Of a stretch of DNA of 64,000 nt, positions 6,829 through 64,000 are shown piece after piece. The stretch's first letter is position 1. Every line of letters begins with the position of its first letter. Source of the stretch: Pontederia crassipes. Its lineage: Eukaryota > Streptophyta > Magnoliopsida > Commelinales > Pontederiaceae. The DNA lies in assembly GCA_030549335.1 (NCBI GenBank), contig JAUKPH010000018.1, forward strand, positions 6,758,001-6,822,000. Reading direction: 5' to 3'. Below the pieces are notes generated by a model. The model saw only the letters and a list, made by a program, of their open reading frames with translations. It was not told the DNA's origin and did not search any database. Both the position numbers and the translations under genes were made by a program.

Positions 6829-6851
6829 CTTTGGGTGTCCTAAGAGGTGAT

Positions 6852-13207: not shown

Positions 13208-14220
13208 AGGTGATAGATCTTTAGAACATTAACTCTATTTCAAACCGAAGTTGAACCGTTACAATCAAAGATAACGCTCTTGGGGATTAGAGTCTTAGAG
13301 TTAGGTTCAAAGCTATAAGTTATAGATACTTATGACGACCTTTGGGTGTCCTAAGAGGTGATAGATCTTTAGAACATTAATTCTATTTCAAACCGAAGTT
13401 GAACCGTTACAATCAAAGATAACGCTCTTGGGGATTAGAGTCTTAGAGTTAGGTTCAAAGCTATAAGTTATAGATACTTATTACAACCTTTGGGTGTCTT
13501 AAGAGGTGATAGATCTTTAGAACTTTAACTCTATTTCAAACCGAAGTTGAACCGTTACAATCAAAGATAACGCTCTTGGGGATTAGAGTCTTTGAGTTAG
13601 GTTCAAAGCTATAAGTTATAGATACTTATTACAACCTTTGGGTGAACTAAGAGGTGATAGATCTTTAGAACTTTAACTCTATTTCAAACCGAAGTTGAAC
13701 CGTTACAATCAAAGATAACGCTCTTGGGGATTAGAGTCTTAGAGTTAGGTTCAAAGCTATAAGTTATAGAAACTTATTACAACCTTTGGGTGTCCTAAGA
13801 GGTGATAGATCTTTAGAACTTTAACTCTATTTCAAACCGAAGTTGAACCGTTACAATCAAAGATAACGCTCTTAGGGATTAGAGTCTTAGAGTTAGGTTC
13901 AAAGCTATAAGTTATAGATACTTATTACAACCTTTGGGTGTCCTAAGAGGTGATAGATCTTTAGAACTTTAACTCTATTTCAAACCGAAGTTGAACCGTT
14001 ACAATCAAAGATAACGCTCTAAGGGATTAGAGTCTTAGAGTTAGGTTCAAAGCTATAAGTTATAGATACTTATGACAACCTTTGGGCGTCCTAAGAGGTG
14101 ATAGATCTTTAGAACTTTAACTCTTTTTCAAACCGAAGTTGAACCGTTACAATCAAAGATAACGCTCTAAGGGATTAGAGTCTTAGAGTTAGGTTCAAAG
14201 CTATAAGTTATAAATACTTA
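13208..14220. repeat. 11-monomer duplication, copy 2 (partial)
   Basis: Second copy of 11580-13207 by the three markers given there. It runs into the next duplication pair near 14210, so the last monomers of the unit are replaced. Confidence 0.65.
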
Positions 14221-15539
14221 TTACAACCTTTGGGTGTCTTAAGAGGTGATAGATCTTTAGAACTTTAACTCTATTTCAAACCGAAGTTGAACCGTTACAA
14301 TCAAAGATAACGCTCTTAGGGATTAGAGTCTTAGAGTTAGGTTCAAAGCTATAAGTTATAGATACTTATGACAACCTTTGGGTGTCCTAAGAGGTGATAG
14401 ATCTTTAGAACTTTAATTCTATTTCAAACCGAAGTTGAACCGTTACAATCAAAGATAATGCTCTTGGGGATTAGAGTCTTAGAGTTAGGTTCAAAGCTAT
14501 AAGTTATAGATACTTATTACAACCTTTGGGTGTCTTAAGAGGTGATAGATCTTTAGAACTTTAACTCTATTTCAAACCGAAGTTGAACCGTTACAATCAA
14601 AGATAACGCTCTTGGGGATTAGAGTCTTAGAGTTAGGTTCAAAGCTATAAGTTATAGAAACTTATTACAACCTTTGTGTGTCCTAAGAGGTGATAGATCT
14701 TTAGAACTTTAACTCTATTTCAAACCGAAGTTGAACTGTTACAATCAAAGATAACGCTCTTGGGGATTGGAGTCTTTGAGTAAGGTGCAAAGCTATAAGT
14801 TATAGATACTTATTACAACCTTTGGGTGCCCTATGAGGTGTTAGATCTTTAGTACTTTAACTTATTTCAAACCGAAGTTGAACCGTTACAATCAAAGATA
14901 ACGCTCTTGGGGATTAGAGTCTTAGAGTAAGGTGCAAAGCTATAAGTTATAGATACTTATTACAACCTTTGGGTGTCCTAAGAGGTGATAGTTCTTTAGA
15001 ATTTTAACTCCATTTCAATCCGAAGTTGAACTATTATAATCAAAGATAACGCTCTTGGGATTAGAGTCTTAGAGTTGGGTTCAAAGCTATAAGTGATAGA
15101 TACTTATTACAACCTTTGGGTGTCCTAAGAGGTGATAGATCTTTAGAACTTTGACTCTATTTCAAACGGAAGTTGAATCGTTACAATCAAAGATAACGAT
15201 CTTGGGGATTAGAGTCTTAGAGTAAGGTGAAAAGCTATAAGTTATAGATACTTATTACAACCTTTGGGTGCCCTAAGAAGTGATAGATCTTTAGAACTTT
15301 AACTCTATTTCAAACCGAAGTTGAACCGTTACAATCAAAGATAACGCTCTTGGGGATTAGAGTCTTAGAGTTGGGTACAAAGCTATAAGTTATAGATACT
15401 TATTACAACCTTTGGGTGTCCTAAGAGGTGATAGATCTTTAGAACTTTAACTCTATTTCAAACCGGAGTTGAACCGTTACAATCAAAGATAACGCGCTTG
15501 GGGATTAGAGTCTTAGAGTTAGGTTCAAAGCTATAAGTT
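14210..15539. repeat. 9-monomer duplication (1330 bp), copy 1, with diverged monomers
   Basis: The markers ATAATGCTC (14455 to 15785) and TGGGGATTGG (14761 to 16091) recur 1330 bp apart, i.e. nine monomers minus 2 bp. The 2 bp are missing from the monomer near 14858, which reads AACTTATTTC instead of AACTCTATTTC. Several monomers here carry private changes (GTGCCCTATGAG, TTAGATCTTTAGTAC, GAGTAAGGTG). Confidence 0.7.
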
Positions 15540-16480
15540 ATAAATACTTATTACAACCTTTGGGTGTCTTAAGAGGTGATAGATCTTTAGAACTTTAACT
15601 CTATTTCAAACCGAAGTTGAACCGTTACAATCAAAGATAACGCTCTTAGGGATTAGAGTCTTAGAGTTAGGTTCAAAGCTATAAGTTATAGATACTTATG
15701 ACAACCTTTGGGTGTCCTAAGAGGTGATAGATCTTTAGAACTTTAATTCTATTTCAAACCGAAGTTGAACCGTTACAATCAAAGATAATGCTCTTGGGGA
15801 TTAGAGTCTTAGAGTTAGGTTCAAAGCTATAAGTTATAGATACTTATTACAACCTTTGGGTGTCTTAAGAGGTGATAGATCTTTAGAACTTTAACTCTAT
15901 TTCAAACCGAAGTTGAACCGTTACAATCAAAGATAACGCTCTTGGGGATTAGAGTCTTAGAGTTAGGTTCAAAGCTATAAGTTATAGATACTTATTACAA
16001 CCTTTGTGTGTCCTAAGAGGTGATAGATCTTTAGAACTTTAACTCTATTTCAAACCGAAGTTGAACTGTTACAATCAAAGATAACGCTCTTGGGGATTGG
16101 AGTCTTTGAGTAAGGTGCAAAGCTATAAGTTATAGATACTTATTACAACCTTTGGGTGCCCTATGAGGTGTTAGATCTTTAGTACTTTAACTTATTTCAA
16201 ACCGAAGTTGAACCGTTACAATCAAAGATAACGCTCTTGGGGATTAGAGTCTTAGAGTAAGGTGCAAAGCTATAAGTTATAGAAACTTATTACAACCTTT
16301 GGGTGTCCTAAGAGGTGATAGATCTTTAGAACATTAACTCTATTTCAAACCGAAGTTGAACTGTTATAATCAAAGATAACGCTCTTGGGATTAGAGTCTT
16401 ACAGTTGGGTTCAAAGCTATAAGTGATAGATACTTATTACAACCTTTGGGTGTCCTAAGAGGTGATAGATCTTTAGAACT
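15540..16480. repeat. 9-monomer duplication, copy 2, with diverged monomers
   Basis: Partner of 14210-15539 by the same private variants. Around 16380-16430 it carries further singletons (TCTTACAGTTGGG, AAGTGATAG). It joins ordinary monomers near 16480. Confidence 0.65.
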
Positions 16481-19400
16481 TTAATTCTATTTCAAACCGA
16501 AGTTGAACCGTTACAATCAAAGATAACGCTCTTGGGGATTAGAGTCTTAGAGTTAGGTTCAAAGCTATAAGTTATAAATACTTATTACAACCTTTGGGTG
16601 TCTTAAGAGGTGATAGATCTTTAGAACTTTAACTCTATTTCAAACCGAAGTTGAACCGTTACAATCAAAGATAACGCTCTTGGGGATTAGAGTCTTTGAG
16701 TTAGGTTCAAAGCTATAAGTTATAGATACTTATTACAACCTTTGGGTGTCCTAAGAGGTGATAGATCTTTAGAACTTTAACTCTTTTTCAAACCGAAGTT
16801 GAACCGTTACAATCAAAGATAACGCTCTTAGGGATTAGAGTCTTAGAGTTAGGTTCAAAGCTATAAGTTATAGATACTTATGACAACCTTTGGGTGTCCA
16901 AAGAGGTGATAGATCTTTAGAACTTTAACTCTTTTTCAAACCGAAGTTGAACCGTTACAATCAAATATAACGCCCTTAGGGATTAGAGTCTTAGAGTTAG
17001 GTTCAAAGCTATAAGTTATAGATACTTATTAAAACCTTTGGGTGTCCTAAGAGGTGATAGATCTTTAGAACTTTAACTCTATTTCAAACCAAAGTTGAAC
17101 CGTTACAATCAAAGATAACTCTCTTGGGGATTAGAGTCTTAGAGTTAGGTTCAAAGCTATAAGTTATAGATACTTATGACAACCTTTGGGTGTCCTAAGA
17201 GGTGATAGATCTTTAGAACTTTAATTCTATTTCAAACCGAAGTTGAACCGTTACAATCACAGATAACGCTCTTCGGGATTAGAGTCTTATTGTTAGGTTC
17301 AAAGCTATAAGTTATAGATACTTATTACAACCTTTGGGTGTCCTAAGAGGTGATAGATCTTTAGAACTTTAACTCTATTTCAAACCGAAGTTGAACCGTT
17401 ACAATCAAAGATAACGCTCTTAGGGATTAGAGTCTTAGAGTTAGGTTCAAAGCTATAAGTTATAGATACTTATGACAACCTTTGGGTGTCCTAAGAGGTG
17501 ATAGATCTTTAGAACTTTAATTCTATTTCAAACCGAAGTTGAACCGTTACAATCAAAGATAACGCTCTTGGGGATTAGAGTCTTAGAGTTAGGTTCAAAG
17601 CTATAAGTTATAGATACTTATGACAACCTTTGGGTGTCCTAAGAGGTGATAGATCTTTAGAACTTTAACTCTATTTCAAACCGAAGTTGAACCGTTACAA
17701 TCAAAGATAACGCTCTTAGGGATTAGAGTCTTAGAGTTAGGTTCAAAGCTATAAGTTATAGATACTTATTACAACCTTTGGGTGTCTTAAGAGGTGATAG
17801 ATCTTTAGAACTTTAACTCTTTTTCAAACCGAAGTTGAACCGTTACAATCAAACATAACGCTCTTAGGGATTAGAGTCTTAGAGTTAGGTTCAAAGCTAT
17901 AAGTTATAGATACTTATGACAACCTTTGGGCGTCCTAAGAGGTGATAGATCTTTAGAACTTTAACTCTTTTTCAAACCGAAGTTGAACCGTTACAATCAA
18001 AGATAACGCTCTTAGGGATTAGAGTCTTAGAGTTAGGTTCAAAGCTATAAGTTATAGATACTTATCACAACCTTTGGGTGTCCTAAGAGGTGATAGATCT
18101 TTAGAACTTTAACTCTTTATCAAACCGAAGTTGAACCGTTACAATCAAAGATAATGCTCTTAGGGATTAGAGTCTTAGAGTTAGGTTCAAAGCTATAAGT
18201 TATAGATACTTATGACAACCTTTGGGTGTCCTAAGAGGTGATAGATCTTTAGAACTTTAACTCTATTTCAAACCGAAGTTGAACCGTTACAATCAAAGAT
18301 AACGCTCTTAGGGATTAGAGTCTTAGAGTTAGGTTCAAAGCTATAAGTTATAGATACTTATTACAACCTTTGGGTGTCTTAAGAGGTGATAGATCTTTAG
18401 AACTTTAACTCTATTTCAAACCGAAGTTGAACCGTTACAATCAAAGATAACGCTCTTAGGGATTAGAGTCTTAGAGTTAGGTTCAAAGCTATAAGTTATA
18501 GATACTTATTACAACCTTTGGGCGTCCTAAGAGGTGATAGATCTTTAGAACTTTAACTCTATTTCAAACCGAAGTTGAACCGTTACAATCAAAGATAACG
18601 CTCTTAGGGATTAGAGTCTTAGAGTTAGATTCAAAGCTATAAGTTATAGACACTTATGACAACCTTTGGGTGTCCTAAGAGGTGATAGATCTTTAGAACT
18701 TGAACTCTTTTTCAAACCGAAGTTGAACCGTTACAATCAAACATAACGCTCTTAGGGATTAGAGTCTTAGAGTTAGGTTCAAAGCTATAAGTTATAGATA
18801 CTTATGACAACCTTTGGGCGTCCTAAGAGGTGATAGATCTTTAGAACTTTAACTCTTTTTCAAACCGAAGTTGAACCGTTACAATCAAAGATAACGCTCT
18901 TAGGGATTAGAGTCTTAGAGTTAGGTTCAAAGCTATAAGTTATAGATACTTATCACAACCTTTGGGTGTCCTAAGAGGTGATAGATCTTTAGAACTTTAA
19001 CTCTATTTCAAACCGAAGTTGAACCGTTACAATCAAAGATAACGCTCTTAGGGATTAGAGTCTTAGAGTTAGGTTCAAAGCTATAAGTTATAGATACTTA
19101 TGACAACCTTTGGGCGTCCTAAGAGGAGATAGATCTTTAGAACTTTAACTCTTTTTCAAACCGAAATTGAACCGTTACAATCAAAGATAACGCTCTTAGG
19201 GATTAGAGTCTTAGAGTTTGGTTCAAAGCTATAAGTTATAGATACTTATTACAACCTTTAGGTGTCCTAAGAGGTGATAGATCTTTAGAACTTTAACTCT
19301 TTTTCAAACCGAAGTTGGACTGTTACAATAAAAAATAACGCTCTTAGGGATTAGAGTCTTAGAGTTAGGTTCAAAGCTATAAGTTATAGATACTTATCAC

Positions 19401-20927
19401 AACCTTTGGGCGTCCTAAGAGGTGTTAGATCTTTAGAACTTTAACTATATTTCAAACCAAAGTTGAACCGTTACAATCAAAGATAACGCTCTTAGGGATT
19501 AGAGTCTTAGAGTTAGGTTCAAAGCTATAAGTTATAGATACTTATGACAACCTTTTGGGTGTCCTAAGAGGTGATAGATCTTTAGAACTTTAACTCTATT
19601 TCAAACCGAAGTTGAACCGTTACAATCAAAGATAACACTCTTAGGGATTAGAGTCTTAGAGTTAGGTTCAAAGCTATAAGTTATAGATACTTATGACAAC
19701 CTTTGGGTGTCCTAAGAGGTGATAGATCTTTAGAACTTTAACTCTTTTTCAAACCGAAGTTGAACCGTTACAATCAAAGATAACGCTCTTAGGGATTAGA
19801 GTCTTTGAGTTAGGTTCAAAGCTATAAGTTATAGATACTTATTACAACCTTTGGGTGAACTAAGAGGTGATAGATCTTTAGAACTTTAACTCTATTTCAA
19901 ACCGAAGTTGAACCGTTACAATCAAATATAACGCTCTTGGGGATTAGAGTCTTAGAGTTAGGTTCAAAGCTATAAGTTATAGAAACTTATTACAACCTTT
20001 GGGTGTCCTAAGAGGTGATAGATCTTTAGAACATTAACTCTATTTCAAACCGAAGTTGAACCGTTACAATCAAAGATAACGCTCTTGGGGATTAGAGTCT
20101 TAGAGTTAGGTTCAAAGCTATAAGTTATAGATACTTATGACGACCTTTGGGTGTCCTAAGAGGTGATAGATCTTTAGAACTTTAATTTTATTTCAAACCG
20201 AAGTTGAACCGTTACAATCAAAGATAACGATCTTGGGGATTAGAGTCTTAGAGTTAGGTTCAAAGCTATAAGTTATAGATACTTATTACAACCTTTGGGT
20301 GTCGTAAGAGGTGATAGATCTTTAGAACTTTAACTCTATTTCAAACCGAAGTTGAACCGTTACAATCAAAGATAACGCTCTTGGGGATTAGAGTCTTTGA
20401 GTTAGGTTCAAAGCTATAAGTTATAGATACTTATTACAACCTTTGGGTGAACTAAGAGGTGATAGATCTTTAGAACTTTAACTCTATTTCAAACCGAAGT
20501 TGAACCGTTACAATCAAAGATAACGCTCTTGGGGATTAGAGTCTTAGAGTTAGGTTCAAAGCTATAAGTTATAGAAACTTATTACAACCTTTGGGTGTCC
20601 TAAGAGGTGATAGATCTTTAGAACTTTAACTCTATTTCAAACCGAAGTTGAACCGTTACAATCAAAGATAACGCTCTTAGGGATTAGAGTCTTAGAGTTA
20701 GGTTCAAAGCTATAAGTTATAGATACTTATTACAACCTTTGGGTGTCTTAAGAGGTGATAGATCTTTAGAACTTTAACTCTATTTCAAACCGAAGTTGAA
20801 CCGTTACAATCAAAGATAACGCTCTTAGGGATTAGAGTCTTAGAGTTAGGTTCAAAGCTATAAGTTATAGATACTTATTACAACCTTTGGGTGTCCTAAG
20901 AGGTGATAGTTCTTTAGAACTTTATCT

Positions 20928-20932
20928 CTATT
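20928..20932. repeat. Target site duplication, left copy (CTATT)
   Basis: The 5 bp CTATT directly before the LTR terminus TG are repeated directly after the other LTR terminus CA (28075-28079). Five bases is the usual target duplication for Ty3/gypsy integrases. Removing the element plus one CTATT restores an ordinary monomer (CTATTTCAAACC). Confidence 0.97.
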
Positions 20933-21216
20933 TGATACGATGCTCAAGAACAATGCCTTGAGTGACCGGAACAATATATGATAATCAAAGAAACGAGATC
21001 AAACGAATTTTCAAGGCAGCGGAATATCAACCTCAAGATTACAATGAACCAAGCAATCGATATTATAAATAGATGGATTTAACCACAAGATAGCCAACCT
21101 TGTAATTAACAGCGGAAGTTCCCGAAGAACGGGTTGCAGGAGTTCCCTCACAGCAAAAGCAATTAAGCCATAATTTTCATAGATTCAAAGATCTCTAACA
21201 TAACAATGAGTAACAG

Positions 21217-21224
21217 TATTTATA
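21217..21224 (-). promoter_or_regulatory. TATA-like box, 3' LTR copy
   Basis: TATAAATA on the element strand (context GTCTATAAATACTG), the counterpart of the box at 27642-27649. In this LTR it lies downstream of the polyprotein stop. It could in principle start transcripts reading leftward into the satellite. That is possible but not shown. Confidence 0.5.
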
Positions 21225-21365
21225 GACCCTAGAAACAGAATTTGGGCTGAAAGAAAATACCCTAACTTAGCCCACAAGTAACCTAACTAATTTAACAAAA
21301 TAACAAACTCAATTTCTGTTACAATCCTCATCAACATATTCCATATTTAATTAATTCCGAAAATT

Positions 21366-21399
21366 CCAAATAAATATGGTTAAACCATGATTTATTTGG
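21366..21399. other. 34-bp near-perfect palindrome just after the gag-pol stop
   Basis: Outer arms CCAAATAAAT / ATTTATTTGG and inner arms ATGGTT / AACCAT give 16 paired positions, with a single-base centre and one unpaired G. On the element strand it begins 6 bases after the TAA stop, so the RNA could form a hairpin immediately 3' of the reading frame. The same palindrome is in the 5' LTR at 27791-27824. A role in RNA 3'-end handling or as a protein-binding dyad in U3 is only inference. Confidence 0.85.
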
Positions 21400-21405
21400 C
21401 CTGAG

Positions 21406-24400
21406 TTATGCTGACTCTTCATGCGGCCCAATTTGTAACACATTGAGAAGTTGGATCTGATTTGTAGTTGCATGCCCACTTTGTAAATGATTTTCTATTG
21501 TCTTCTGAAGTTGTTTTGCTCTTGATCTTGTGAGTGGGCGTGAGGATTCTTGATCAGTTTCTTTATCTCGAAGATCCACATCATTATCCTGATCATCATC
21601 GGACTTTTCTTGATCAGTTGCATTTATGGAAGCTTCCCGATTCATATCATTTCCCTCCTCTTCAAAAGGATTCGTCCTCGAATCTGTATAAAAATCAAAA
21701 GGAGACAAGTCAGTAACATTGAAAGTAGAACTCACTTGATACTTACCTTGCAAGTCAACTCTATATGCATTGTCATTAATTTTCTCGATGATCTTAAAAG
21801 GACCATCTCCACGTGGATGCAACTTTGACTTTCGTTCTCGTGGAAATCTCTCTTTTCTGAAATGTATCCAAACAAAATCTCCTGGTTGGAAAGTAATCTT
21901 CTTCCTCTTGATATTCGAGCGATTAGCAACTTGTTCATTCCTTTGAAGAATATGATCCCTAGTATCCTCATGAATCTTCTTAACCAATTCAGCTTTCCTT
22001 TTGCCATCTAAATTGGCAACTTCTTTCACTGGCAGTGGAATCAAATCTAAAGGAGTTAATGGATTAAAACCATAAACAACTTCAAAAGGAGTAAACTTGG
22101 TAGATGTATGCAATGTTCTATTATAAGCAAATTCAATTACAGGCAAGCATTCTTCCCACGATTTCAAATTTTTCTTTATCACAGCACGCAGTAAAGTACC
22201 AAGAGTTCGATTTACTACCTCGGTTTGCCCATCAGTTTGCGGGTGGCAAGTAGTAGAAAATAGCAATTTTGTACCCAACTTACCCCATAGAACACGCCAA
22301 AAGTGGCTCAGAAATTTGACATCCCTATCACTTACAATAGTTTTGGGAATGCCATGTAGGCGCACAACCTCTTTAAAGAATAAATCTGCAACATGAGTAG
22401 CATCGTTAGTTTTACGACAAGGAATAAAGTGTGCCATTTTTGAAAACCTGTCAACAACAACAAATATGGAGTCTTTTCCACTTCTAGACCGTGGCAAACC
22501 TAGAACAAAATCCATGGAAACATCAGTCCAAGGATGACTAGGAACTGGCAAAGGCATATATAATCCATGGGGTCTAACTTTAGATTTAGCCTTCCTGCAT
22601 GCTATGCAATTAGAACAATTTCGTTGCACATCTCTCTTCATGTGAGGCCAAAAGAAATGTTCTTTCAAAATTTCTAGAGTTTTCAAAACTCCAAAATGCC
22701 CCATCAATCCTCCCGCATGTGATTCTTTAACAAGCAATTCACGCAAAGAACAATGAGGAATACATAGCTTATTCTTGCGAAACAAATACCCTTCAAATCT
22801 GTAAAAATTTTCAAAACCAGATTTTTCACAAGCTTTAAACACAACAGGGAAATCAGGATCTTTCTCATACAAATCCTTCAAATATTCAAAACCCAGGAAT
22901 TTTGCATCAAGTAATGAGATAAGTGTATACCTTCGTGACAACGCATCAGCAACTATATTTTCCTTTCCATGTTTATATTTGATAACAAAAGGAAACATTT
23001 CAATGAATTCAACCCAGTGACCATGTCGTCGATTTAGCTTACCTTGTCCCTTCAAATGTTTTAAGGATTCATGGTCTGAATGAATGACAAATTCTTTAGA
23101 CCACAAATAGTGTTGCCAAGTCTCTAAAGCTCTCACCAATGCATAAAGCTCTTTGTCATATGTGGGATAGTTAAGAGCTGCGCCACTGAGTTTCTCGCTA
23201 AAATAAGCAATTGGTCTTCCTTCCTGCATTAGAACAGCACCAATACCAATTCCTGAAGCATCACATTCTATTTCAAAAGTTTTGGTAAAATCAGGTAAAA
23301 CAAGCAAAGGAGCTGAACTTAGCTTGTCTTTCAATGTATTGAAGGCGGTCTCCTGCTCTTCTGTCCATCGGAAGCCAACATTCTTTTTTATTACTTCAGT
23401 CAAAGGAGAAGCTAGAGTGCTAAAATTTGGTACAAATCTGCGATAGAAGCTAGCTAGACCATGAAAACTTCGCACATCCGTCACTGTTTTCGGTGTAGGC
23501 CATTCTTTGATTGCCTTGACTTTTTCTTCATCAACCTCTACACCTTTAGAGCTAACAACAAAGCCAAGAAAAAGTACTCTATCCATGCAGAAATCACACT
23601 TTTTCATGTTAGCATATAACTTTTCATGCCTTAAAGTCTCAAGCACAAGTCTTAAATGTTCAATATGATCAGTTAAGCACTTACTATAAATCAATATGTC
23701 ATCAAAATACACAACAACAAATTTGCCTATAAAAGCACGCAAGACATGATTCATCAATCTCATAAAAGTACTAGGTGCATTCGTGAGACCAAACGGCATA
23801 ACCAACCACTCGTATAAACCATGTTTTGTTTTAAAGGCAGTCTTCCATTCATCACCTTCTCTCATCCGGATTTGATGGTATCCACTTTTTAAATCAATCT
23901 TAGAAAATATAGAAGAACCATGCAACTCATCAAGCATATCATCTAATCGAGGAATAGGGTGTCGATATTTTACCGTAATCTTATTTACTGCACGACAATC
24001 AACACACATTCGCCAAGTCCCATCCTTCTTTGGCACTAGTAAAACAGGGACAGCACAAGGGCTCATGCTCTCACGAACAAGCCCTTTAGAAAGGAGTTCT
24101 TCCACCTGCTTTTGTAACTCTTTTGTTTCTTCAGAGTTGCTCCGGTAAGCTGGACGATTTGGAATTTGTGCGCCCGGAATGAAGTCAATCTGGTGTTCAA
24201 TTCCTCTAATTGGAGGTAAACCTGAAGGTATTTCATCGGGCAAGACATCTTGAAATTCCTGCAATAAAGAGATAACAACACTAGGTAGAGGAGTGTCAGC
24301 ATTAGACAAGTAGACCTCCTTGTATAATAACAAGATCATTGGCCTCATTGAGTTGTAAACTTCTTGATTTTCACTCACTCTAGCTACAGCACTCATTTTT

Positions 24401-26301
24401 TTATCTTTCCTGCTCTCTTGCTTCTCATCTCCTCTTACCCTGCCCACTTTTTCTTTTTCGTTGTTTGCACTCAGATTTTCAACTCTTCCTTTCTCTTCTT
24501 TCACCATGCTCACTTTTACATCATTACTTTTTCCACTCTGATTTTCAACTCTACTCTCACTCTCTTTTTGTGTTGGCTGAACTTGACTAACATTCTGAAG
24601 TTCCTTGTAATAAGTGGCCATGGACTTCTTTATTTGCAATTGCTCCTCAAACACTTGGTGTGGTAATAATGGTACCAATGTGCTATGTCGCTTGTCCTTG
24701 TGGAAACTATAGCGATTTGTGTGACCATCATGTGTGGCATGTCTATCAAACTGCCAAGGTCTCCCAAGTAAGATGTGGCATGCCTGCATAGGTACAACAT
24801 CGCACAACACCTCATCAGCATACTTCCCAATAGAAAATGATATCAATACCTGTTTTGTAACTTTGAGCTCTCCATTTTCATTTAACCATTGGAGCCTGTA
24901 AGGTTTTGGATGCTTCAAAGTAGGTAAACAAAGCTTGTCAACCATAAACTTACTTGCCACATTAACACAACTCCCACTATCAATGATCAGCCCACAAGTA
25001 CGATCTTGCACACGACAACGAGCATAAAAGATGTTCTCTCTTTGAAGTTCTTCAGTGTTTTCTTGGACATTTATATGTAATGTTCTCAGAATCACAAAAT
25101 TTTTCCCAACTTCTTCAATTTCTTCTCCACTTTCTTCTTCTGCACTCTCTTGTGATAAGTCTTCTTCAGATGCAATATCACCGTTGTCCATCATGATCAT
25201 AGCACGTTTATTTGGGCATTGCGAAGCAATATGACCTGAACCAAGACAACGAAAACATTTAATATCTCGAGTCCTTTGTGAACTATTAGAGGCAATACCT
25301 TTGTCCTTTGAGTTGGAATGTTCAGCCTTGTTTTTCTCCTCTAATTTTTGAGTTGGCTTATCAACTAACTTGGAATTTGCACGCCATTTTGATTTCCAAG
25401 CAGAATTTGAACTTTCAGATTTGCTATTTGGACGAATATCTTTCTTCAATTGCTTCTCAACCTTTATAGCCTTATGCAGAACTTCATCCAACTCCAAATA
25501 CTCTTGCAATTCCACAACTCTAGAAATCTCTCGATTCAGCCCGCATATGAATCTTGCAATTGTGTCTTCTCGATCCTCATTTATGTTGGCTCGGATGAGT
25601 GCCGTTTCCATCTCTTTATAGTACTCTTCAACAGTCTTTGATCCCTGTCTCATAGTCTGCAATTTCATACGTAAGTCACGATAATATGATGGAGGAACAA
25701 ATCTTCTCCTCAATATAATTTTCATGTCATCCCAATATTCAACTGGAGGCTCTCGATTTCTGCGCCTATTAATGGTTAATTGATTCCACCAAGTAATAGC
25801 ATAATCAGCAAAGGATACAACAGCAAGTTTAACCTTTTTCTCATCGGAGTAATTATGACAATCAAATATACTTTCCACCCTTTGTTCCCACTCAATATAG
25901 ACATCAGGATCGCTTTTACCTTGAAAGGTAGGGAGAGAGAGTTTGATTGAACCTGTGTTTCGATCAGTAACATCTCTATCTTGTTCCCTTTCTCGTCCAT
26001 TTCTTCTACCTCCAATCTGAACACGTCTATGCCTTCTCCCATGTCTATCAGAGGCTTCATCATCTTCCTCTTCCATCTCTTCATCATCAACAACATGGCG
26101 TCTTCGGCGATCTCTTCTTTGGTTTGGATGTATAACCTGTTGTAGTTGTGCAATTTGATCCTTCTGCACATCTACTTCATCGTGAAGTTCAGTAATCATG
26201 TTTCCAAGACGTTGAAAATGTTGCGTCATGACTTCCATCATCCTTGTAGGATCAATTTCTTCGTTTCTAGGATTAATCTCTTTGTCCTTTCCTGTTGACA
26301 T
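21406..26301 (-). CDS. gag-pol: Gag-Pol polyprotein of a CRM-like Ty3/gypsy retrotransposon
   Basis: One continuous frame of about 1631 residues encodes particle protein and enzymes. Order (approximate residues from the ATG at 26301): N-terminal coiled coil 19-58; arginine-rich and acidic stretch 60-110; Gag core with TWWNQL near 170; zinc knuckle CX2CX4HX4C at 349-362; aspartic protease motif DSGS at 441; Lys/Glu/Ser-rich linker about 574-648; reverse transcriptase with YFDD at 865-868; RNase H with acidic residues 1014, 1051, 1076 and 1119; integrase zinc domain (CX2C at 1232-1235); catalytic D1264, D1325 and E1361 (the D-35-E spacing); GPF module about 1498-1538. A canonical chromodomain is not obvious. 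The last 80 or so residues are encoded in the 3' LTR. I chose the ATG at 26301 because the open frame upstream to 26322 begins at TTG and has no ATG. Expression presumably yields one precursor cut by the protease. The element looks whole. Confidence 0.95.
21650..21663 (-). other. Polypurine tract (plus-strand primer) inside the reading frame
   Basis: On the element strand this reads GAAGAGGAGGGAAA and abuts the 3' LTR start, the required position for second-strand priming. It is also coding: it specifies the EEEGN portion of the polyprotein, so sequence here is constrained both for priming and for protein. Confidence 0.9.
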
Positions 26302-26995
26302 TGTAGGAAATTTCTGCAACAAAAGTTAGTAAAAACAATCTCACTACCTCACGTGGTGACACTCGTATTTTACCTCAACTCTATTTGGCTTTTCTCTCAA
26401 TTGTACTTACCACTCAGCCTTTTTCCTCTCTTGAACCCTCCAACAAGTTCTAGGAGAACTAATGCAAGTCAATACAAAGGCAATATGTGATTGAATCAAC
26501 CTGATTTATCAATATGATTGCAAGATCAAAAGAATACTTGAAGTTGATTTTAGAATAGAGATCAGAAAAAAAAAGATTGCCAAATAAGGATAGATGTGTA
26601 ATGAATTGATTTGGAATAGAAATCAGGAAAATGTTGTCAAATAAGGATAGGTATCAAAAAATTCAGAATTGGAATGAAATCAAATATCACCCTTCCTTGA
26701 GTCAAATTGTTCTATTCTCAATTTTTTTTGCACTTTTCTCCAGAAATAATCCTTCCTTTTTTTTTCTTCTCTCCTATTTCTTTTTTTTTTTTGGAATTTT
26801 TTTTTCAAAAATTTTTTTCTTCTCTTTTCTTGCACTTTCCTTTTCAGTCTTTTTTTCTATTCTCGGAATTTTTTTTCAGAAATTTTTTTTTTCCTACCTT
26901 CCCTTCTCCTTTCTTGCACTTTCCTTCTCGATCTTTTTTTGTTTTCAATTTTCGGATTTTTTTTGAAACAACAACAAAACTTGAGAATAAATAAG

Positions 26996-27226
26996 GATGA
27001 CGGCTAGGGTTTCAACAACAAATAAACAGATTTATTTTTGGATTTTTTTTTTCAAATCTGCACCAGATTTGACCAGATTTGAAGGATAGATGACGGCTAG
27101 GGTTTGAAGAACAAAAGAAAACAATTAAGGAAGACGGTTAGGATTTGAAAAACCAAACCAGAATTTTTATTTTTTTTTTCAAACTGCAACAGATTTTGAA
27201 GAATCCAAGGATGACGGCTAGGGTTG
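26996..27226 (-). repeat. Short dispersed direct repeats in the leader
   Basis: Four related copies of a GATGACGGCTAGGGTTT-like motif (plus-strand reading) at 26996, 27089, 27131 (variant AAGACGGTTAGGATTT) and 27210. Each is followed by an A-rich AACAACAAA or GAAGAACAAA tail. Spacing is irregular (about 93, 42 and 79 bp). They are probably remnants of leader slippage or duplication. A packaging role is possible but unsupported. Confidence 0.65.
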
Positions 27227-27343
27227 AAGAACAAACAAACTAGATTTTTTTTTTTTGCAGAATTTTGGTGTTTTTTTTCTAAAAACTGAAACAGGGGGAA
27301 ATAAGATAATGGAAGATAACTAGAAAACCGAATCGAAAACGCG

Positions 27344-27355
27344 GCTCTGATACCA
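27344..27355 (-). other. Primer-binding site for initiator tRNA-Met
   Basis: On the element strand TGGTATCAGAGC begins two bases after the 5' LTR end. It is complementary to the 3' end of plant initiator methionine tRNA (GCTCTGATACCA). Complementarity may continue a base or two to GCC. This is the usual minus-strand primer for plant Ty3/gypsy chromoviruses and confirms that the 5' LTR is the right-hand one. Confidence 0.93.
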
Positions 27356-27641
27356 ACTGATACGATGCTCAAGAACAATGCCTTGAGTGACCGGAACAAT
27401 ATATGATAATCAAAGAAACGAGATCAAACGAATTTTCAAGGCAGCGGAATATCAACCTCAAGATTACAATGAACCAAGCAATCGATATTATAAATAGATG
27501 GATTTAACCACAAGATAGCCAACCTTGTAATTAACAGCGGAAGTTCCCGAAGAACGGGTTGCAGGAGTTCCCTCACAGCAAAAGCAATTAAGCCATAATT
27601 TTCATAGATTCAAAGATCTCTAACATAACAATGAGTAACAG

Positions 27642-27649
27642 TATTTATA
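27642..27649 (-). promoter_or_regulatory. TATA-like box of the 5' LTR
   Basis: TATAAATA on the element strand, preceded by CTAGGGTC. It lies in the LTR interior about 425 bases after the LTR start, which fits a U3 promoter. It is the best core-promoter match I can see in the LTR. Transcript mapping is lacking. Confidence 0.65.
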
Positions 27650-27790
27650 GACCCTAGAAACAGAATTTGGGCTGAAAGAAAATACCCTAACTTAGCCCAC
27701 AAGTAACCTAACTAATTTAACAAAATAACAAACTCAATTTCTGTTACAATCCTCATCAACATATTCCATATTTAATTAATTCCGAAAATT

Positions 27791-27824
27791 CCAAATAAAT
27801 ATGGTTAAACCATGATTTATTTGG
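27791..27824. other. 34-bp palindrome, 5' LTR copy
   Basis: Identical to 21366-21399. In this LTR it lies in U3, about 140 bases upstream of the TATA-like box, so as DNA it could be a dyad binding site for a regulator as readily as an RNA hairpin. Confidence 0.8.
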
Positions 27825-28074
27825 CCTGAGTTATGCTGACTCTTCATGCGGCCCAATTTGTAACACATTGAGAAGTTGGATCTGATTTGTAGTTGCATGC
27901 CCACTTTGTAAATGATTTTCTATTGTCTTCTGAAGTTGTTTTGCTCTTGATCTTGTGAGTGGGCGTGAGGATTCTTGATCAGTTTCTTTATCTCGAAGAT
28001 CCACATCATTATCCTGATCATCATCGGACTTTTCTTGATCAGTTGCATTTATGGAAGCTTCCCGATTCATATCA

Positions 28075-28079
28075 CTATT
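28075..28079. repeat. Target site duplication, right copy (CTATT)
   Basis: Matches 20928-20932. The following TCAAACCAAAG continues the interrupted monomer. The same uninterrupted sequence is at 30887 (2812 bp on) and 34291. Confidence 0.97.
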
Positions 28080-30886
28080 TCAAACCAAAGTTGAACCGTT
28101 ACAATCAAAGATAACGCTCTTGGGGATTAGAGTCTTTGAGTTAGGTTCAAAGCTATAAGTTATAGATACTTATTACAACCTTTGGGTGTCCTAAGAGGAG
28201 ATAGATCTTTAGAACTTTAACTCCATCTCAAACCGAAGTTGAACCGTTACAATCAAATATAACGCTCTTAGGGATTAGAGTCTTAGAGTTAGGTTCAAAC
28301 CTATAAGTTATAGATACTTATGACAACCTTTGGGTGTCCAAAGAGGTGATAGATCTTTAGAACTTTAACTCTTTTTCAAACCGAAGTTGAACCGTTACAA
28401 TCAAATATAACGCCCTTAGGGATTAGAGTCTTAGAGTTAGGTTCAAAGCTATAAGTTATAGATACTTATTACAACCTTTGGGCGTCCTAAGAGGTGATAG
28501 ATCTTTAGAACTTTAACTCTATTTCAAACCAAAGTTGAACCGTTACAATCAAAGATAACTCTCTTGGGGATTAGAGTCTTAGAGTTAGGTTCAAAGCTAT
28601 AAGTTATAGATACTTATGACAACCTTTGGGTGTCCTAAGAGGTGATAGATCTTTAGAACTTTAATTCTATTTCAAACCGAAGTTGAACCGTTACAATCAC
28701 AGATAACGCTCTTCGGGATTAGAGTCTTAGAGTTTGGTTCAAAGCTATAAGTTATAGATACTTATTACAACCTTTGGGCGTCCTAAGAGGTGATAGATCT
28801 TTAGAACTTTAACTCTATTTCAAACCGAAGTTGAACCGTTACAATCAAAGATAACGCTCTTAGGGATTAGAGTCTTAGAGTTAGGTTCAAAGCTATAAGT
28901 TATAGATACTTATCACAACCTTTGGGTGTCCTAAGAGGTGATAGATCTTTAGAACTTTAACTCTATTTCAAACCGAAGTTGAACCGTTACAATCAAAGAT
29001 AACGCTCTTGGGGATTAGAGTCTTAGAGTTAGGTTCAAAGCTATAAGTTATAGATACTTATGACAACCTTTGGGTGTCCTAAGAGGTGATAGATCTTTAG
29101 AACATTAACTCTATTTCAAACCGAAGTTGAACCGTTACAATCAAAGATAACGCTCTTGGGGATTAGAGTCTTAGAGTTAGGTTCAAAGCTATAAGTTATA
29201 GATACTTATGACGACCTTTGGGTGTCCTAAGACGTGATAGATCTTTAGAACTTTAATTCTATTTCAAACCGAAGTTGAACCGTTACAATCAAAGATAACG
29301 CTCTTGGGGATTAGAGTCTTAGAGTTAGGTTCAAAGCTATAAGTTATAAATACTTATTACAACCTTTGGGTGTCTTAAGAGGTGATAGATCTTTAGAACT
29401 TTAACTCTATTTCAAACCGAAGTTGAACCGTTACAATCAAAGATAACGCTCTTGGGGATTAGAGTCTTTGAGTTAGGTTCAAAGCTATAAGTTATAGATA
29501 CTTATTACAACCTTTGGGTGTCCTAAGAGGTGATAGATCTTTAGAACTTTAACTCTTTTTCAAACCGAAGTTGAACCGTTACAATCAAAGATAACGCTCT
29601 TAGGGATTAGAGTCTTAGAGTTAGGTTCAAAGCTATAAGTTATAGATACTTATGACAACCTTTGGGTGTCCAAAGAGGTGATAGATCTTTAGAACTTTAA
29701 CTCTTTTTCAAACCGAAGTTGAACCGTTACAATCAAATATAACGCCCTTAGGGATTAGAGTCTTAGAGTTAGGTTCAAAGCTATAAGTTATAGATACTTA
29801 TTACAACCTTTGGGTGAACTAAGAGGTGATAGATCTTTAGAACTTTAACTCTATTTCAAACCGAAGTTGAACCGTTACAATCAAATATAACGCTCTTGGG
29901 GATTAGAGTCTTAGAGTTAGGTTCAAAGCTATAAGTTATAGAAACTTATTACAACCTTTGGGTGTCCTAAGAGGTGATAGATCTTTAGAACATTAACTCT
30001 ATTTCAAACCGAAGTTGAACCGTTACAATCAAAGATAACGCTCTTGGGGATTAGAGTCTTAGAGTTAGGTTCAAAGCTATAAGTTATAGATACTTATGAC
30101 GACCTTTGGGTGTCCTAAGAGGTGATAGATCTTTAGAACTTTAATTTTATTTCAAACCGAAGTTGAACCGTTACAATCAAAGATAACGATCTTGGGGATT
30201 AGAGTCTTAGAGTTAGGTTCAAAGCTATAAGTTATAGATACTTATTACAACCTTTGGGTGTCGTAAGAGGTGATAGATCTTTAGAACTTTAACTCTATTT
30301 CAAACCGAAGTTGAACCGTTACAATCAAAGATAACGCTCTTGGGGATTAGAGTCTTTGAGTTAGGTTCAAAGCTATAAGTTATAGATACTTATTACAACC
30401 TTTGGGTGAACTAAGAGGTGATAGATCTTTAGAACTTTAACTCTATTTCAAACCGAAGTTGAACCGTTACAATCAAAGATAACGCTCTTGGGGATTAGAG
30501 TCTTAGAGTTAGGTTCAAAGCTATAAGTTATAGAAACTTATTACAACCTTTGGGTGTCCTAAGAGGTGATAGATCTTTAGAACTTTAACTCTATTTCAAA
30601 CCGAAGTTGAACCGTTACAATCAAAGATAACGCTCTTAGGGATTAGAGTCTTAGAGTTAGGTTCAAAGCTATAAGTTATAGATACTTATTACAACCTTTG
30701 GGTGTCTTAAGAGGTGATAGATCTTTAGAACTTTAACTCTATTTCAAACCGAAGTTGAACCGTTACAATCAAAGATAACGCTCTTAGGGATTAGAGACTT
30801 AGAGTTAGGTTCAAAGCTATAAGTTATAGATACTTATTACAACCTTTGGGTGTCCTAAGAGGTGATAGTTCTTTAGAACTTTATCT
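28075..30886. repeat. 19-monomer higher-order unit (2812 bp) beside the insertion
   Basis: The insertion-site sequence at 28075 recurs at 30887, and CACAGATA/CTTCGGG at 28698 recurs at 31510, both 2812 bp. The part left of the element (about 19800-20932) matches about 29760-30886, so the element interrupts one copy of this unit at its edge. Confidence 0.8.
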
Positions 30887-33800
30887 CTATTTCAAACCAA
30901 AGTTGAACCGTTACAATCAAAGATAACGCTCTTGGGGATTAGAGTCTTTGAGTTAGGTTCAAAGCTATAAGTTATAGATACTTATTACAACCTTTGGGTG
31001 TCCTAAGAGGAGATAGATCTTTAGAACTTTAACTCCATCTCTAACCGAAGTTGAACCGTTACAATCAAATATAACGCTCTTAGGGATTAGAGTCTTAGAG
31101 TTAGGTTCAAACCTATAAGTTATAGATACTTATGACAACCTTTGGGTGTCCAAAGAGGTGATAGATCTTTAGAACTTTAACTCTTTTTCAAACCGAAGTT
31201 GAACCGTTACAATCAAATATAACGCCCTTAGGGATTAGAGTCTTAGAGTTAGGTTCAAAGCTATAAGTTATAGATACTTATTACAACCTTTGGGTGTTCT
31301 AAGAGGTGATAGATCTTTAGAACTTTAACTCTATTTCAAACCAAAGTTGAACCGTTACAATCAAAGATAACTCTCTTGGGGATTAGAGTCTTAGAGTTAG
31401 GTTCAAAGCTATAAGTTATAGATACTTATGACAACCTTTGGGTGTCCTAAGAGGTGATAGATCTTTAGAACTTTAATTCTATTTCAAACCGAAGTTGAAC
31501 CGTTACAATCACAGATAACGCTCTTCGGGATTAGAGTCTTAGAGTTTGGTTCAAAGCTATAAGTTATAGATACTTATTACAACCTTTGGGTGTCCTAAGA
31601 GGTGATAGATCTTTAGAACTTTAACTCTATTTCAAACCGAAGTTGAACCGTTACAATCAAAGATAACGCTCTTAGGGATTAGAGTCTTAGAGTTAGGTTC
31701 AAAGCTATAAGTTATAGATACTTATGACAACCTTTGGGTGTCCTAAGAGGTGATAGATCTTTAGAACTTTAATTCTATTTCAAACCGAAGTTGAACCGTT
31801 ACAATCAAAGATAACGCTCTTGGGGATTAGAGTCTTAGAGTTAGGTTCAAAGCTATAAGTTATAGATACTTATGACAACCTTTGGGTGTCCTAAGAGGTG
31901 ATAGATCTTTAGAACATTAACTCTATTTCAAACCGAAGTTGAACCGTTACAATCAAAGATAACGCTCTTGGGGATTAGAGTCTTAGAGTTAGGTTCAAAG
32001 CTATAAGTTATAGATACTTATGACGACCTTTGGGTGTCCTAAGACGTGATAGATCTTTAGAACTTTAATTCTATTTCAAACCGAAGTTGAACCGTTACAA
32101 TCAAAGATAACGCTCTTGGGGATTAGAGTCTTAGAGTTAGGTTCAAAGCTATAAGTTATAAATACTTATTACAACCTTTGGGTGTCTTAAGAGGTGATAG
32201 ATCTTTAGAACTTTAACTCTATTTCAAACCGAAGTTGAACCGTTACAATCAAAGATAACGCTCTTGGGGATTAGAGTCTTTGAGTTAGGTTCAAAGCTAT
32301 AAGTTATAGATACTTATTACAACCTTTGGGTGTCCTAAGAGGTGATAGATCTTTAGAACTTTAACTCTTTTTCAAACCGAAGTTGAACCGTTACAATCAA
32401 AGATAACGCTCTTAGGGATTAGAGTCTTAGAGTTAGGTTCAAAGCTATAAGTTATAGATACTTATGACAACCTTTGGGTGTCCAAAGAGGTGATAGATCT
32501 TTAGAACTTTAACTCTTTTTCAAACCGAAGTTGAACCGTTACAATCAAATATAACGCCCTTAGGGATTAGAGTCTTAGAGTTAGGTTCAAAGCTATAAGT
32601 TATAGATACTTATTACAACCTTTGGGTGTCCTAAGAGGTGATAGATCTTTAGAACTTTAACTCTATTTCAAACCAAAGTTGAACCGTTACAATCAAAGAT
32701 AACTCTCTTGGGGATTAGAGTCTTAGAGTTAGGTTCAAAGCTATAAGTTATAGATACTTATGACAACCTTTGGGTGTCCTAAGAGGTGATAGATCTTTAG
32801 AACTTTAATTCTATTTCAAACCGAAGTTGAACCGTTACAATCACAGATAACGCTCTTCGGGATTAGAGTCTTAGAGTTAGGTTCAAAGCTATAAGTTATA
32901 GATACTTATTACAACCTTTGGGTGTCCTAAGAGGTGATAGATCTTTAGAACTTTAACTCTATTTCAAACCGAAGTTGAACCGTTACAATCAAAGATAACG
33001 CTCTTAGGGATTAGAGTCTTAGAGTTAGGTTCAAAGCTATAAGTTATAGATACTTATGACAACCTTTGGGTGTCCAAAGAGGTGATAGATCTTTAGAACT
33101 TTAACTCTTTTTCAAACCGAAGTTGAACCGTTACAATCAAATATAACGCCCTTAGGGATTAGAGTCTTAGAGTTAGGTTCAAAGCTATAAGTTATAGATA
33201 CTTATTACAACCTTTGGGTGAACTAAGAGGTGATAGATCTTTAGAACTTTAACTCTATTTCAAACCGAAGTTGAACCGTTACAATCAAATATAACGCTCT
33301 TGGGGATTAGAGTCTTAGAGTTAGGTTCAAAGCTATAAGTTATAGAAACTTATTACAACCTTTGGGTGTCCTAAGAGGTGATAGATCTTTAGAACATTAA
33401 CTCTATTTCAAACCGAAGTTGAACCGTTACAATCAAAGATAACGCTCTTGGGGATTAGAGTCTTAGAGTTAGGTTCAAAGCTATAAGTTATAGATACTTA
33501 TGACGACCTTTGGGTGTCCTAAGAGGTGATAGATCTTTAGAACTTTAATTTTATTTCAAACCGAAGTTGAACCGTTACAATCAAAGATAACGATCTTGGG
33601 GATTAGAGTCTTAGAGTTAGGTTCAAAGCTATAAGTTATAGATACTTATTACAACCTTTGGGTGTCGTAAGAGGTGATAGATCTTTAGAACTTTAACTCT
33701 ATTTCAAACCGAAGTTGAACCGTTACAATCAAAGATAACGCTCTTGGGGATTAGAGTCTTTGAGTTAGGTTCAAAGCTATAAGTTATAGATACTTATTAC

Positions 33801-34290
33801 AACCTTTGGGTGAACTAAGAGGTGATAGATCTTTAGAACTTTAACTCTATTTCAAACCGAAGTTGAACCGTTACAATCAAAGATAACGCTCTTGGGGATT
33901 AGAGTCTTAGAGTTAGGTTCAAAGCTATAAGTTATAGAAACTTATTACAACCTTTGGGTGTCCTAAGAGGTGATAGATCTTTAGAACTTTAACTCTATTT
34001 CAAACCGAAGTTGAACCGTTACAATCAAAGATAACGCTCTTAGGGATTAGAGTCTTAGAGTTAGGTTCAAAGCTATAAGTTATAGATACTTATTACAACC
34101 TTTGGGTGTCTTAAGAGGTGATAGATCTTTAGAACTTTAACTCTATTTCAAACCGAAGTTGAACCGTTACAATCAAAGATAACGCTCTTAGGGATTAGAG
34201 ACTTAGAGTTAGGTTCAAAGCTATAAGTTATAGATACTTATTACAACCTTTGGGTGTCCTAAGAGGTGATAGTTCTTTAGAACTTTATCT
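30887..34290. repeat. 23-monomer higher-order unit (3404 bp), copy 1
   Basis: CTATTTCAAACC in the TTATCTCTATTT variant context recurs at 34291, and CACAGATA at 31510 and 32842 recurs at 34914 and 36246, all 3404 bp. It equals the 19-monomer unit plus four extra monomers (592 bp), inserted near 32570-33160. Its left edge is an empty copy of the retrotransposon target. Confidence 0.8.
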
Positions 34291-36600
34291 CTATTTCAAA
34301 CCAAAGTTGAACCGTTACAATCAAAGATAACGCTCTTGGGGATTAGAGTCTTTGAGTTAGGTTCAAAGCTATAAGTTATAGATACTTATTACAACCTTTG
34401 GGTGTCCTAAGAGGAGATAGATCTTTAGAACTTTAACTCCATCTCTAACCGAAGTTGAACCGTTACAATCAAATATAACGCTCTTAGGGATTAGAGTCTT
34501 AGAGTTAGGTTCAAACCTATAAGTTATAGATACTTATGACAACCTTTGGGTGTCCAAAGAGGTGATAGATCTTTAGAACTTTAACTCTTTTTCAAACCGA
34601 AGTTGAACCGTTACAATCAAATATAACGCCCTTAGGGATTAGAGTCTTAGAGTTAGGTTCAAAGCTATAAGTTATAGATGCTTATTACAACCTTTGGGTG
34701 TTCTAAGAGGTGATAGATCTTTAGAACTTTAACTCTATTTCAAACCAAAGTTGAACCGTTACAATCAAAGATAACTCTCTTGGGGATTAGAGTCTTAGAG
34801 TTAGGTTCAAAGCTATAAGTTATAGATACTTATGACAACCTTTGGGTGTCCTAAGAGGTGATAGATCTTTAGAACTTTAATTCTATTTCAAACCGAAGTT
34901 GAACCGTTACAATCACAGATAACGCTCTTCGGGATTAGAGTCTTAGAGTTTGGTTCAAAGCTATAAGTTATAGATACTTATTACAACCTTTGGGTGTCCT
35001 AAGAGGTGATAGATCTTTAGAACTTTAACTCTATTTCAAACCGAAGTTGAACCGTTACAATCAAAGATAACGCTCTTAGGGATTAGAGTCTTAGAGTTAG
35101 GTTCAAAGCTATAAGTTATAGATACTTATGACAACCTTTGGGTGTCCTAAGAGGTGATAGATCTTTAGAACTTTAATTCTATTTCAAACCGAAGTTGAAC
35201 CGTTACAATCAAAGATAACGCTCTTGGGGATTAGAGTCTTAGAGTTAGGTTCAAAGCTATAAGTTATAGATACTTATGACAACCTTTGGGTGTCCTAAGA
35301 GGTGATAGATCTTTAGAACATTAACTCTATTTCAAACCGAAGTTGAACCGTTACAATCAAAGATAACGCTCTTGGGGATTAGAGTCTTAGAGTTAGGTTC
35401 AAAGCTATAAGTTATAGATACTTATGACGACCTTTGGGTGTCCTAAGACGTGATAGATCTTTAGAACTTTAATTCTATTTCAAACCGAAGTTGAACCGTT
35501 ACAATCAAAGATAACGCTCTTGGGGATTAGAGTCTTAGAGTTAGGTTCAAAGCTATAAGTTATAAATACTTATTACAACCTTTGGGTGTCTTAAGAGGTG
35601 ATAGATCTTTAGAACTTTAACTCTATTTCAAACCGAAGTTGAACCGTTACAATCAAAGATAACGCTCTTGGGGATTAGAGTCTTTGAGTTAGGTTCAAAG
35701 CTATAAGTTATAGATACTTATTACAACCTTTGGGTGTCCTAAGAGGTGATAGATCTTTAGAACTTTAACTCTTTTTCAAACCGAAGTTGAACCGTTACAA
35801 TCAAAGATAACGCTCTTAGGGATTAGAGTCTTAGAGTTAGGTTCAAAGCTATAAGTTATAGATACTTATGACAACCTTTGGGTGTCCAAAGAGGTGATAG
35901 ATCTTTAGAACTTTAACTCTTTTTCAAACCGAAGTTGAACCGTTACAATCAAATATAACGCCCTTAGGGATTAGAGTCTTAGAGTTAGGTTCAAAGCTAT
36001 AAGTTATAGATACTTATTACAACCTTTGGGTGTCCTAAGAGGTGATAGATCTTTAGAACTTTAACTCTATTTCAAACCAAAGTTGAACCGTTACAATCAA
36101 AGATAACTCTCTTGGGGATTAGAGTCTTAGAGTTAGGTTCAAAGCTATAAGTTATAGATACTTATGACAACCTTTGGGTGTCCTAAGAGGTGATAGATCT
36201 TTAGAACTTTAATTCTATTTCAAACCGAAGTTGAACCGTTACAATCACAGATAACGCTCTTCGGGATTAGAGTCTTAGAGTTAGGTTCAAAGCTATAAGT
36301 TATAGATACTTATTACAACCTTTGGGTGTCCTAAGAGGTGATAGATCTTTAGAACTTTAACTCTATTTCAAACCGAAGTTGAACCGTTACAATCAAAGAT
36401 AACGCTCTTAGGGATTAGAGTCTTAGAGTTAGGTTCAAAGCTATAAGTTATAGATACTTATGACAACCTTTGGGTGTCCTAAGAGGTGATAGATCTTTAG
36501 AACTTTAATTCTATTTCAAACCGAAGTTGAACCGTTACAATCAAAGATAACGCTCTTGGGGATTAGAGTCTTAGAGTTAGGTTCAAAGCTATAAGTTATA
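34291..36600. repeat. 23-monomer unit, partial copy 2
   Basis: Collinear with 30887-33200 at 3404 bp. It departs near 36500-36600, before the last monomers of the unit. It is also the start of the larger block duplicated at 40944. Confidence 0.7.
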
Positions 36601-36659
36601 GATACTTATGACAACCTTTGGGTGTCCTAAGAGGTGATAGATCTTTAGAACTTTAACTC

Positions 36660-49680: not shown

Positions 49681-49879
49681 TCTTAGAGTTAGGTTTAAAG
49701 CTATAAGTTATAGATACTTATTACAACCTTTGGGTGTCCTAAGAGGTGATAGATCTTTAGAACTTTAACTCTATTTCAATCCGAAGTTGAACCGTTACAA
49801 TCAAAGATAACGCTCTTGGGGATTAGAGACTTAGAGTTGGGTTCAAAGCTATAAGTTATAGATACTTATTACAACCTTT

Positions 49880-51715: not shown

Positions 51716-51782
51716 CCGTTAGAATCAAAGATAACGCTCTTAGGGATTAGAGTCTTAGAGTTAGGTTCAAAGCTATAAGTTA

Positions 51783-63895: not shown

Positions 63896-64000
63896 ACTTA
63901 TTACAACCTTTGGGTGTCCTAAGAGGTGATAGATCTTTAGAACTTTAACTCTATTTCAAACCAAAGTTGAACCGTTACAATCAAAGATAACTCTCTTGGG

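Follow-up and report, generated by a model that had tools for sequence, protein, structure and literature searches.

According to Neumann et al. 2011 (PMC3059260), elements of the CRM clade of Ty3 retrotransposons have a 5-bp target duplication, long terminal repeats (LTRs) of 299-1225 bp, a total length of about 5.1-10.2 kb, TGATG...CATCA ends in most cases and a primer binding site complementary to tRNA-Met. The same source ties group A of this clade to a CR motif, a reading frame that runs into the 3' LTR and a polypurine tract before that LTR, with an A-rich leader in a number of elements though not in all. Group C is marked by a type II chromodomain. A study of einkorn wheat describes the CR motif as a helix with TRARAR/K at its start, and presents the idea that the CR domain directs integration, perhaps by way of CENH3, as a structural model and not as proven (PMC11302176). 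Here, we describe an element of this type in a window (the whole stretch analysed) of 64,000 nucleotides of the Pontederia crassipes genome (assembly GCA_030549335.1, contig JAUKPH010000018.1, positions 6,758,001 to 6,822,000). It is a Ty3 LTR retrotransposon of 7142 bp on the minus strand, at 20933-28074 of the window, which integrated recently with a 5-bp duplication into an array of a 148-bp satellite. Young copies of its subfamily are found mostly, but not only, in this satellite. We consider it very likely that the element is a recent, structurally complete copy of a young group A CRM-type Ty3 subfamily that is probably steered by its CR motif to a satellite whose arrays undergo turnover.

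Age and distribution of the subfamily

Pairwise alignment of the two 717-bp LTRs gave 0 mismatches, with the identity stopping precisely at the LTR edges; this bears out the sequence-only reading, which had called them identical and the element very young. Relatives were sought by likeness to this LTR, and since the similarity search scored 40 of 1646 candidates, the family recovered is a lower bound. A pattern of the first 30 bases of the LTR, with up to two mismatches allowed, gave 100 matches, 31 of them perfect. The perfect starts make up 15 loci, of which 12 (25 starts) are bordered by the 148-bp satellite and three (6 starts) lie outside it. The bordered loci are distributed over contigs C18 (five), C22 and C34 (two each), and C9, C13 and C14 (one each), an accumulation in the main satellite arrays that is a trait of centromeric retrotransposons. 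Among 50 further LTR starts, none had satellite on the side read, with only about 24 of these sides being host flank; element interior occupied the side read in 25 of the 50, and one more (L083) also looks internal.

The dated copies in the array and those outside it differ in age. Of 24 loci entered for LTR dating, 22 were kept; the C14 copy, with its 3' LTR cut, and a locus at C1:5.60 Mb, which is not one element, were dropped, and the pairs at C5:3.75, C22:3.31 and C8:25.41 stood outside the dating. The LTR mismatches number 0, 0, 0, 0, 1, 2, 0, 0, 0, 2 and 0 in the 11 in-array loci, as against 1, 2, 2, 13, 45, 42, 53, 11, 48, 35 and 18 in the 11 outside loci. In terms of divergence, the dated copies are under 0.3% inside and range up to about 7% outside. 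The contrast is significant (Mann-Whitney p = 2.3e-4) for the 10 versus 10 loci with outer duplications that are identical or one base apart, a set that leaves out the in-array copy at 5.804 Mb and the outside copy at C18:10.59 Mb (no matching duplication). The last 1000 bp of pol differ by just 0-4 among the 11 in-array copies. Their 5' flank is shared by a single pair that does not include the window copy, and the 3' flank by no pair among 10 copies; the 5' flank of the window copy recurs in 0 of the 10 other in-array copies and its 3' flank in 0 of 9. These flanks give no sign that the window copy arose from another by array duplication, which fits the earlier proposal that only one unit received the element and that it has not been copied since.

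In the mechanism that we favor, the CR-like motif at the end of the integrase, for which the 3' LTR codes, probably steers new copies to CENH3 chromatin, here the 148-bp arrays, by analogy with published CRM elements. The cDNA inserted into a single satellite monomer and duplicated 5 bp, in a stretch whose closest relatives in the window are still empty. Exchange within the array would then turn the region over, with elements being duplicated, made chimeric or truncated, and lost; under such turnover, dated copies inside would be young and older ones would survive outside. Whereas the element's anatomy, its age class, the empty sites, the family distribution, and one chimeric and one truncated neighbour were directly observed, the targeting by the CR motif and the removal of old copies by array turnover are what we infer from published work. 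A few points tell against this account. Finding copies by likeness to the LTR of the window copy favors young relatives in both groups. Three of the 15 perfect-start loci (C10, C16 and C18:10.59 Mb) lie outside the satellite, as does a copy at C8:33.68 Mb with 2 LTR mismatches; targeting, if real, is therefore not strict. Finally, the array is taken to be a functional centromere on account of its size and abundance.

A strong rival, to which we accord a substantial though less than even probability, is that the age contrast stems from a burst of insertion or a switch of target in the recent past and not from rapid loss from the array. It draws support from the in-array copies found, all of which belong to one young subfamily with the perfect LTR start, and from the LTR starts with 1-2 mismatches, none of which adjoins satellite on the sides read. 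Against it, copies are damaged by array exchange, as shown by the truncated C14 copy and the chimera at 5.804 Mb, and einkorn copies display the same contrast between inside and outside over about 4 million years (PMC11302176).

These damaged copies deserve a closer description. Two copies on C18, at 5.789 and 5.804 Mb (G000:C18:5789472-5810854; L015, L016, L022, L026, L079, L080), lie 14.2 kb apart and share their right flank (the 5' side), which is free of mismatches over 1500 bp and has 12 over 7071 bp, 10 of these in the last 515. Their 5' LTRs are identical for the first 469 bases and different thereafter, and target duplications match in the 5.789 Mb copy but not in the 5.804 Mb copy. 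As these alignments suggest, the 5.804 Mb copy is probably a chimera produced by exchange between two elements inside the LTR, with copying of one flank, although it may be an assembly error. The flanks diverge after about 6.6-6.9 kb, and the far end of the exchange could not be traced. The chimera points to one route of array exchange, namely homology between two inserted LTRs. In the C14 copy (G000:C14:40380851-40387662; L037, L041), the 3' LTR ends after about 433 bases directly at satellite, and this copy was probably truncated by array recombination.

Other loci also stand out. After its 3' LTR, the C9 copy (G000:C9:48142684-48150225; L028, L027) carries an extra 14-base stretch of the primer site and an inverted 384-base LTR piece; a matching CTTAC duplication lies at its outer ends, so both integrated ends are LTR starts. 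This structure suggests a cDNA that was rearranged by self-integration and nevertheless inserted into the genome. The locus at C1:5600 kb (L044, L045) was rejected as a single element: it is a lone LTR, with the 5' LTR of another family element about 6.9 kb further on, and with its 56 mismatches included the age comparison gives p = 1.2e-4. An identical set of two LTR-start variants with the same 5098-bp spacing occurs at C2:44507385/44512483 and C24:3045586/3040488, which is probably a duplicated or haplotig segment.

Empty sites and relative timing of the insertion

When its flanks are joined (2 kb), they match two other places in the window: 7 mismatches separate them from 29892-31891 and 8 from 33296-35295, compared to 41 at the third-best place. 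Each contains a single CTATT at the insertion point, in agreement with the sequence-only reading, which had placed the uninterrupted context at about 30887 and 34291. The shared block around the insertion differs from the first empty unit at 7 sites in 2863 bp (0.24% divergence); the two empty units show only 2 differences over 3606 bp, and are thus closer to one another than either is to the insertion unit. Four of the 7 differing sites carry the array-majority base in the insertion unit, against a rarer base common to the empty pair; two sites show the reverse pattern, and at one neither has the majority base. The shared rarer bases therefore indicate that the empty pair had a common stem after leaving the insertion unit and underwent its own duplication later.

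Barring a later restoration of the empty sites, these comparisons imply that the insertion must postdate the split of its unit from the ancestor of the empty pair. An attempt to order it relative to the duplication of the pair did not succeed: under a flat prior, the chance that the insertion is the younger of the two falls only slightly below one half. Thus, the earlier claim that the element inserted after the units were amplified is too strong, as the comparisons place the insertion after the first split only. At a rate of 1.3e-8, which was taken from PMC11302176 for grass intergenic DNA, may not be that of the host and gives orders of magnitude only, the split dates to about 94 thousand years ago (38-194) and the empty-pair duplication to about 21 thousand (3-77), while identical LTRs allow 0-198 thousand years. 

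It is quite unlikely that the empty sites are not ancestral but were restored after the insertion by gene conversion or unequal exchange with an element-free template. Satellite arrays often exchange sequence, and near-identical blocks make the window a mosaic; yet both empty blocks have a single CTATT, a register intact over 2.86 kb and no LTR remnant, and restoration would require one conversion before the blocks separated, or two. Still less probable is that the element is older than it looks and that gene conversion between its LTRs keeps them identical. LTR exchange does seem to occur in the array, as in the 5.804 Mb copy, which shares its first 469 LTR bases with the one at 5.789 Mb. However, identical LTRs are seen in 8 of the 11 dated in-array copies while outside copies reach 53 mismatches, the in-array pol ends are likewise almost identical (0-4 differences), and an independent limit on the age comes from the empty-site relative, which has diverged by 0.24%.

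Satellite arrays are poor in landmarks, and a datable element with adjoining empty relatives helps to order local events. The locus had been proposed as a relative clock for array turnover; it can serve in this way, but the other family members provide a better clock, as a family with dated copies inside and outside gives an estimate of the survival time of a retrotransposon in a satellite array.

The element, its lineage and its satellite host

The range 20928-28079 comprises the element and both target duplications (Table 1), the latter being perfect copies of CTATT as first noted. The gag-pol frame is the sole closed open reading frame of at least 150 amino acids in the window. Pfam (E 0.001) recovers gag, reverse transcriptase (RT), RNase H, and the integrase H2C2, core and SH3-like end in it, and it displays a zinc knuckle, a protease-like DSGS, the RT motif YFDD and a D-D35-E spacing. 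The order between the LTRs is thus that of a Ty3 LTR retrotransposon—gag, protease, RT, RNase H, integrase—with the protease placed by the DSGS motif alone. The closest solved structures to the RT-RNase H region are 4ol8 (328 bits) and the Ty3-G Gag-Pol 7q5b (327 bits). The primer binding site is putatively of the initiator-Met type. Tandem Repeats Finder reports imperfect 71/84-bp A-rich tandem repeats in the leader (window 26779-26940). The leader varies much more than the end of pol among three copies compared, with 37-72 differing alignment columns per 1400 bp versus 1-3 in the last 1500 bp before the 3' LTR.

Table 1. Coordinates of the element, its flanks and the empty sites within the window
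Feature	Position	Strand	Remarks
148-bp satellite array, broken by the element	1..64000	+	whole window is one array
Left flank common to both empty relatives, 1126 bp	19807..20932	+	1 mismatch
Target-site duplication CTATT, left copy	20928..20932	+	
3' LTR, 717 bp, TGATA...TATCA	20933..21649	-	0 mismatches to 27358-28074
Single gag-pol frame	21406..26322	-	1638 codons from TTG, first ATG at codon 8
CR-like motif TRSRAK, encoded within the 3' LTR	21514..21531	-	opens predicted helix
Polypurine tract GAAGAGGAGGGAAA	21650..21663	-	coding, directly before 3' LTR
A-rich stretch of 5' leader	26707..26957	-	39 to 68% A in 100-base windows
Primer binding site TGGTATCAGAGC	27344..27355	-	two bases inside 5' LTR
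5' LTR, 717 bp	27358..28074	-	
Target-site duplication CTATT, right copy	28075..28079	+	
Right flank common to both empty relatives, 1737 bp	28080..29816	+	6 mismatches to first, 7 to second
Empty site 1, single CTATT	30887..30891	+	within related block 29766-32628
Empty site 2, single CTATT	34291..34295	+	within related block 33170-36032

Several published group A traits—the frame into the LTR, a CR-like motif and an A-rich leader—bear out the earlier designation of the element as CRM-like. The gag-pol frame extends 80 codons into the 3' LTR, where it encodes TRSRAK, which matches TRARAR/K (PMC11302176) in 5 of 6 residues. In a single-sequence structural model of the C-terminal fragment, a predicted, weakly supported helix at residues 120-135 begins at this motif, with local confidence (pLDDT) in the 70s and a mean of 52. 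The leader reaches 68% A in 100 bases, fitting the group A trait, and the 5-bp target duplication, the LTR length of 717 bp and the element length of 7142 bp fall within the CRM ranges. A Pfam chromodomain (type II being the group C trait) was not found in the C-terminal piece at E up to 5, in a search that had no positive control. The assignment to group A is tempered by the LTR ends, TGATA/TATCA in place of the commonest CRM ends TGATG/CATCA of PMC3059260, by the one residue that separates TRSRAK from TRARAR/K, and by the fact that the name rests on structure. One relative on C8 has an LTR that starts with TGATG. That the element instead belongs to another Ty3 lineage (CRM group B or C, Tekay, Athila) and lies in the array by chance is very improbable: such lineages are also found in centromeric regions (PMC3059260), but the extended frame, the CR-like motif, the A-rich leader and the chromodomain search argue otherwise, and that source ties the first two to group A.

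On the contig, the satellite array begins at about 5.5-5.7 Mb and ends at about 7.3-7.5 Mb, as judged by 20 sample points of 3 kb each: those at 5.70, 5.90, 6.10, 6.30, 6.50, 6.90, 7.10 and 7.30 Mb are fully satellite, and the remaining 12 (5.50 Mb and below, 7.50 Mb and above) are not. Between 6.303 and 6.500 Mb the satellite strand flips on C18, reflecting either a large inversion or two head-to-head arrays. In the window, the spacing between monomers is exactly 148 in 364 of 383 cases, and these 364 monomers average 97.6% identity to the consensus. A single 22-mer of the monomer has 133,548 exact matches in the genome; this is therefore a major satellite, of about 20 Mb in 1.13 Gb. Both junctions of the element fall at one monomer position, phase 61, so the array resumes in exact register as had been noted. 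We looked for a regular higher-order period in the window and found none. Instead, it contains blocks of 1.5-4.7 kb, nearly identical to one another, that are repeated at irregular lags (about 11, 12, 16, 19, 23, 29, 30, 33, 42, 45 monomers and more), and hence these blocks are segmental duplications and not units of one higher-order repeat; the earlier term "higher-order units" was too regular.

With respect to the position of insertion within the monomer, phases 125-128 hold 4 of the 12 in-array insertions, from four contigs and in both orientations. Clustering over all 12 is not significant (Rayleigh p = 0.19); for four of 12 within 4 bases, p = 0.02, or 0.06 after allowing for the choice of interval width, and with this corrected value we rejected the clustering as an established result. 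It is doubtful that the subfamily favors this one spot, as if set by a phased centromeric nucleosome. A brief literature search was made for a preferred monomer position, and its absence from print is not claimed.

Comparison with known centromeric elements

Elements of this kind are well known, and a like pattern has been published for the centromeres of wheat, hop and maize. Like group A CRM elements (PMC3059260), it has a 5-bp duplication, sizes within the published range, a single open reading frame that runs into the 3' LTR with the polypurine tract before it, an A-rich leader, a CR-type C terminus and a satellite location; it departs from them in its LTR ends and in the one residue of its motif. 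RLG_Cereba of einkorn wheat (PMC11302176) similarly has a CR domain after a poorly conserved spacer, with younger copies inside and older ones mostly outside the functional centromere. However, the einkorn centromeres described there are without tandem arrays, whereas the host here is a long 148-bp satellite array, the centromere function of which is presumed.

The account of the CR elements in the CentC arrays of maize centromere 10 (PMC4806543) offers a parallel for array turnover: insertions and array duplications are dated side by side, and chimeric elements with mismatched target duplications, partial elements and inverted arrays are described. The present array differs in that its chimeric copy could be linked to exchange within the LTR, the partner being a neighbouring copy at a distance of 14 kb. 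Hop (Humulus lupulus) centromeres are mainly composed of CRM elements and an LTR-embedded 284-bp repeat, in place of the 148-bp satellite seen here; nevertheless, the youngest hop CRM copies (0-1 Ma) likewise lie in the CENH3 domains (PMC12371157).

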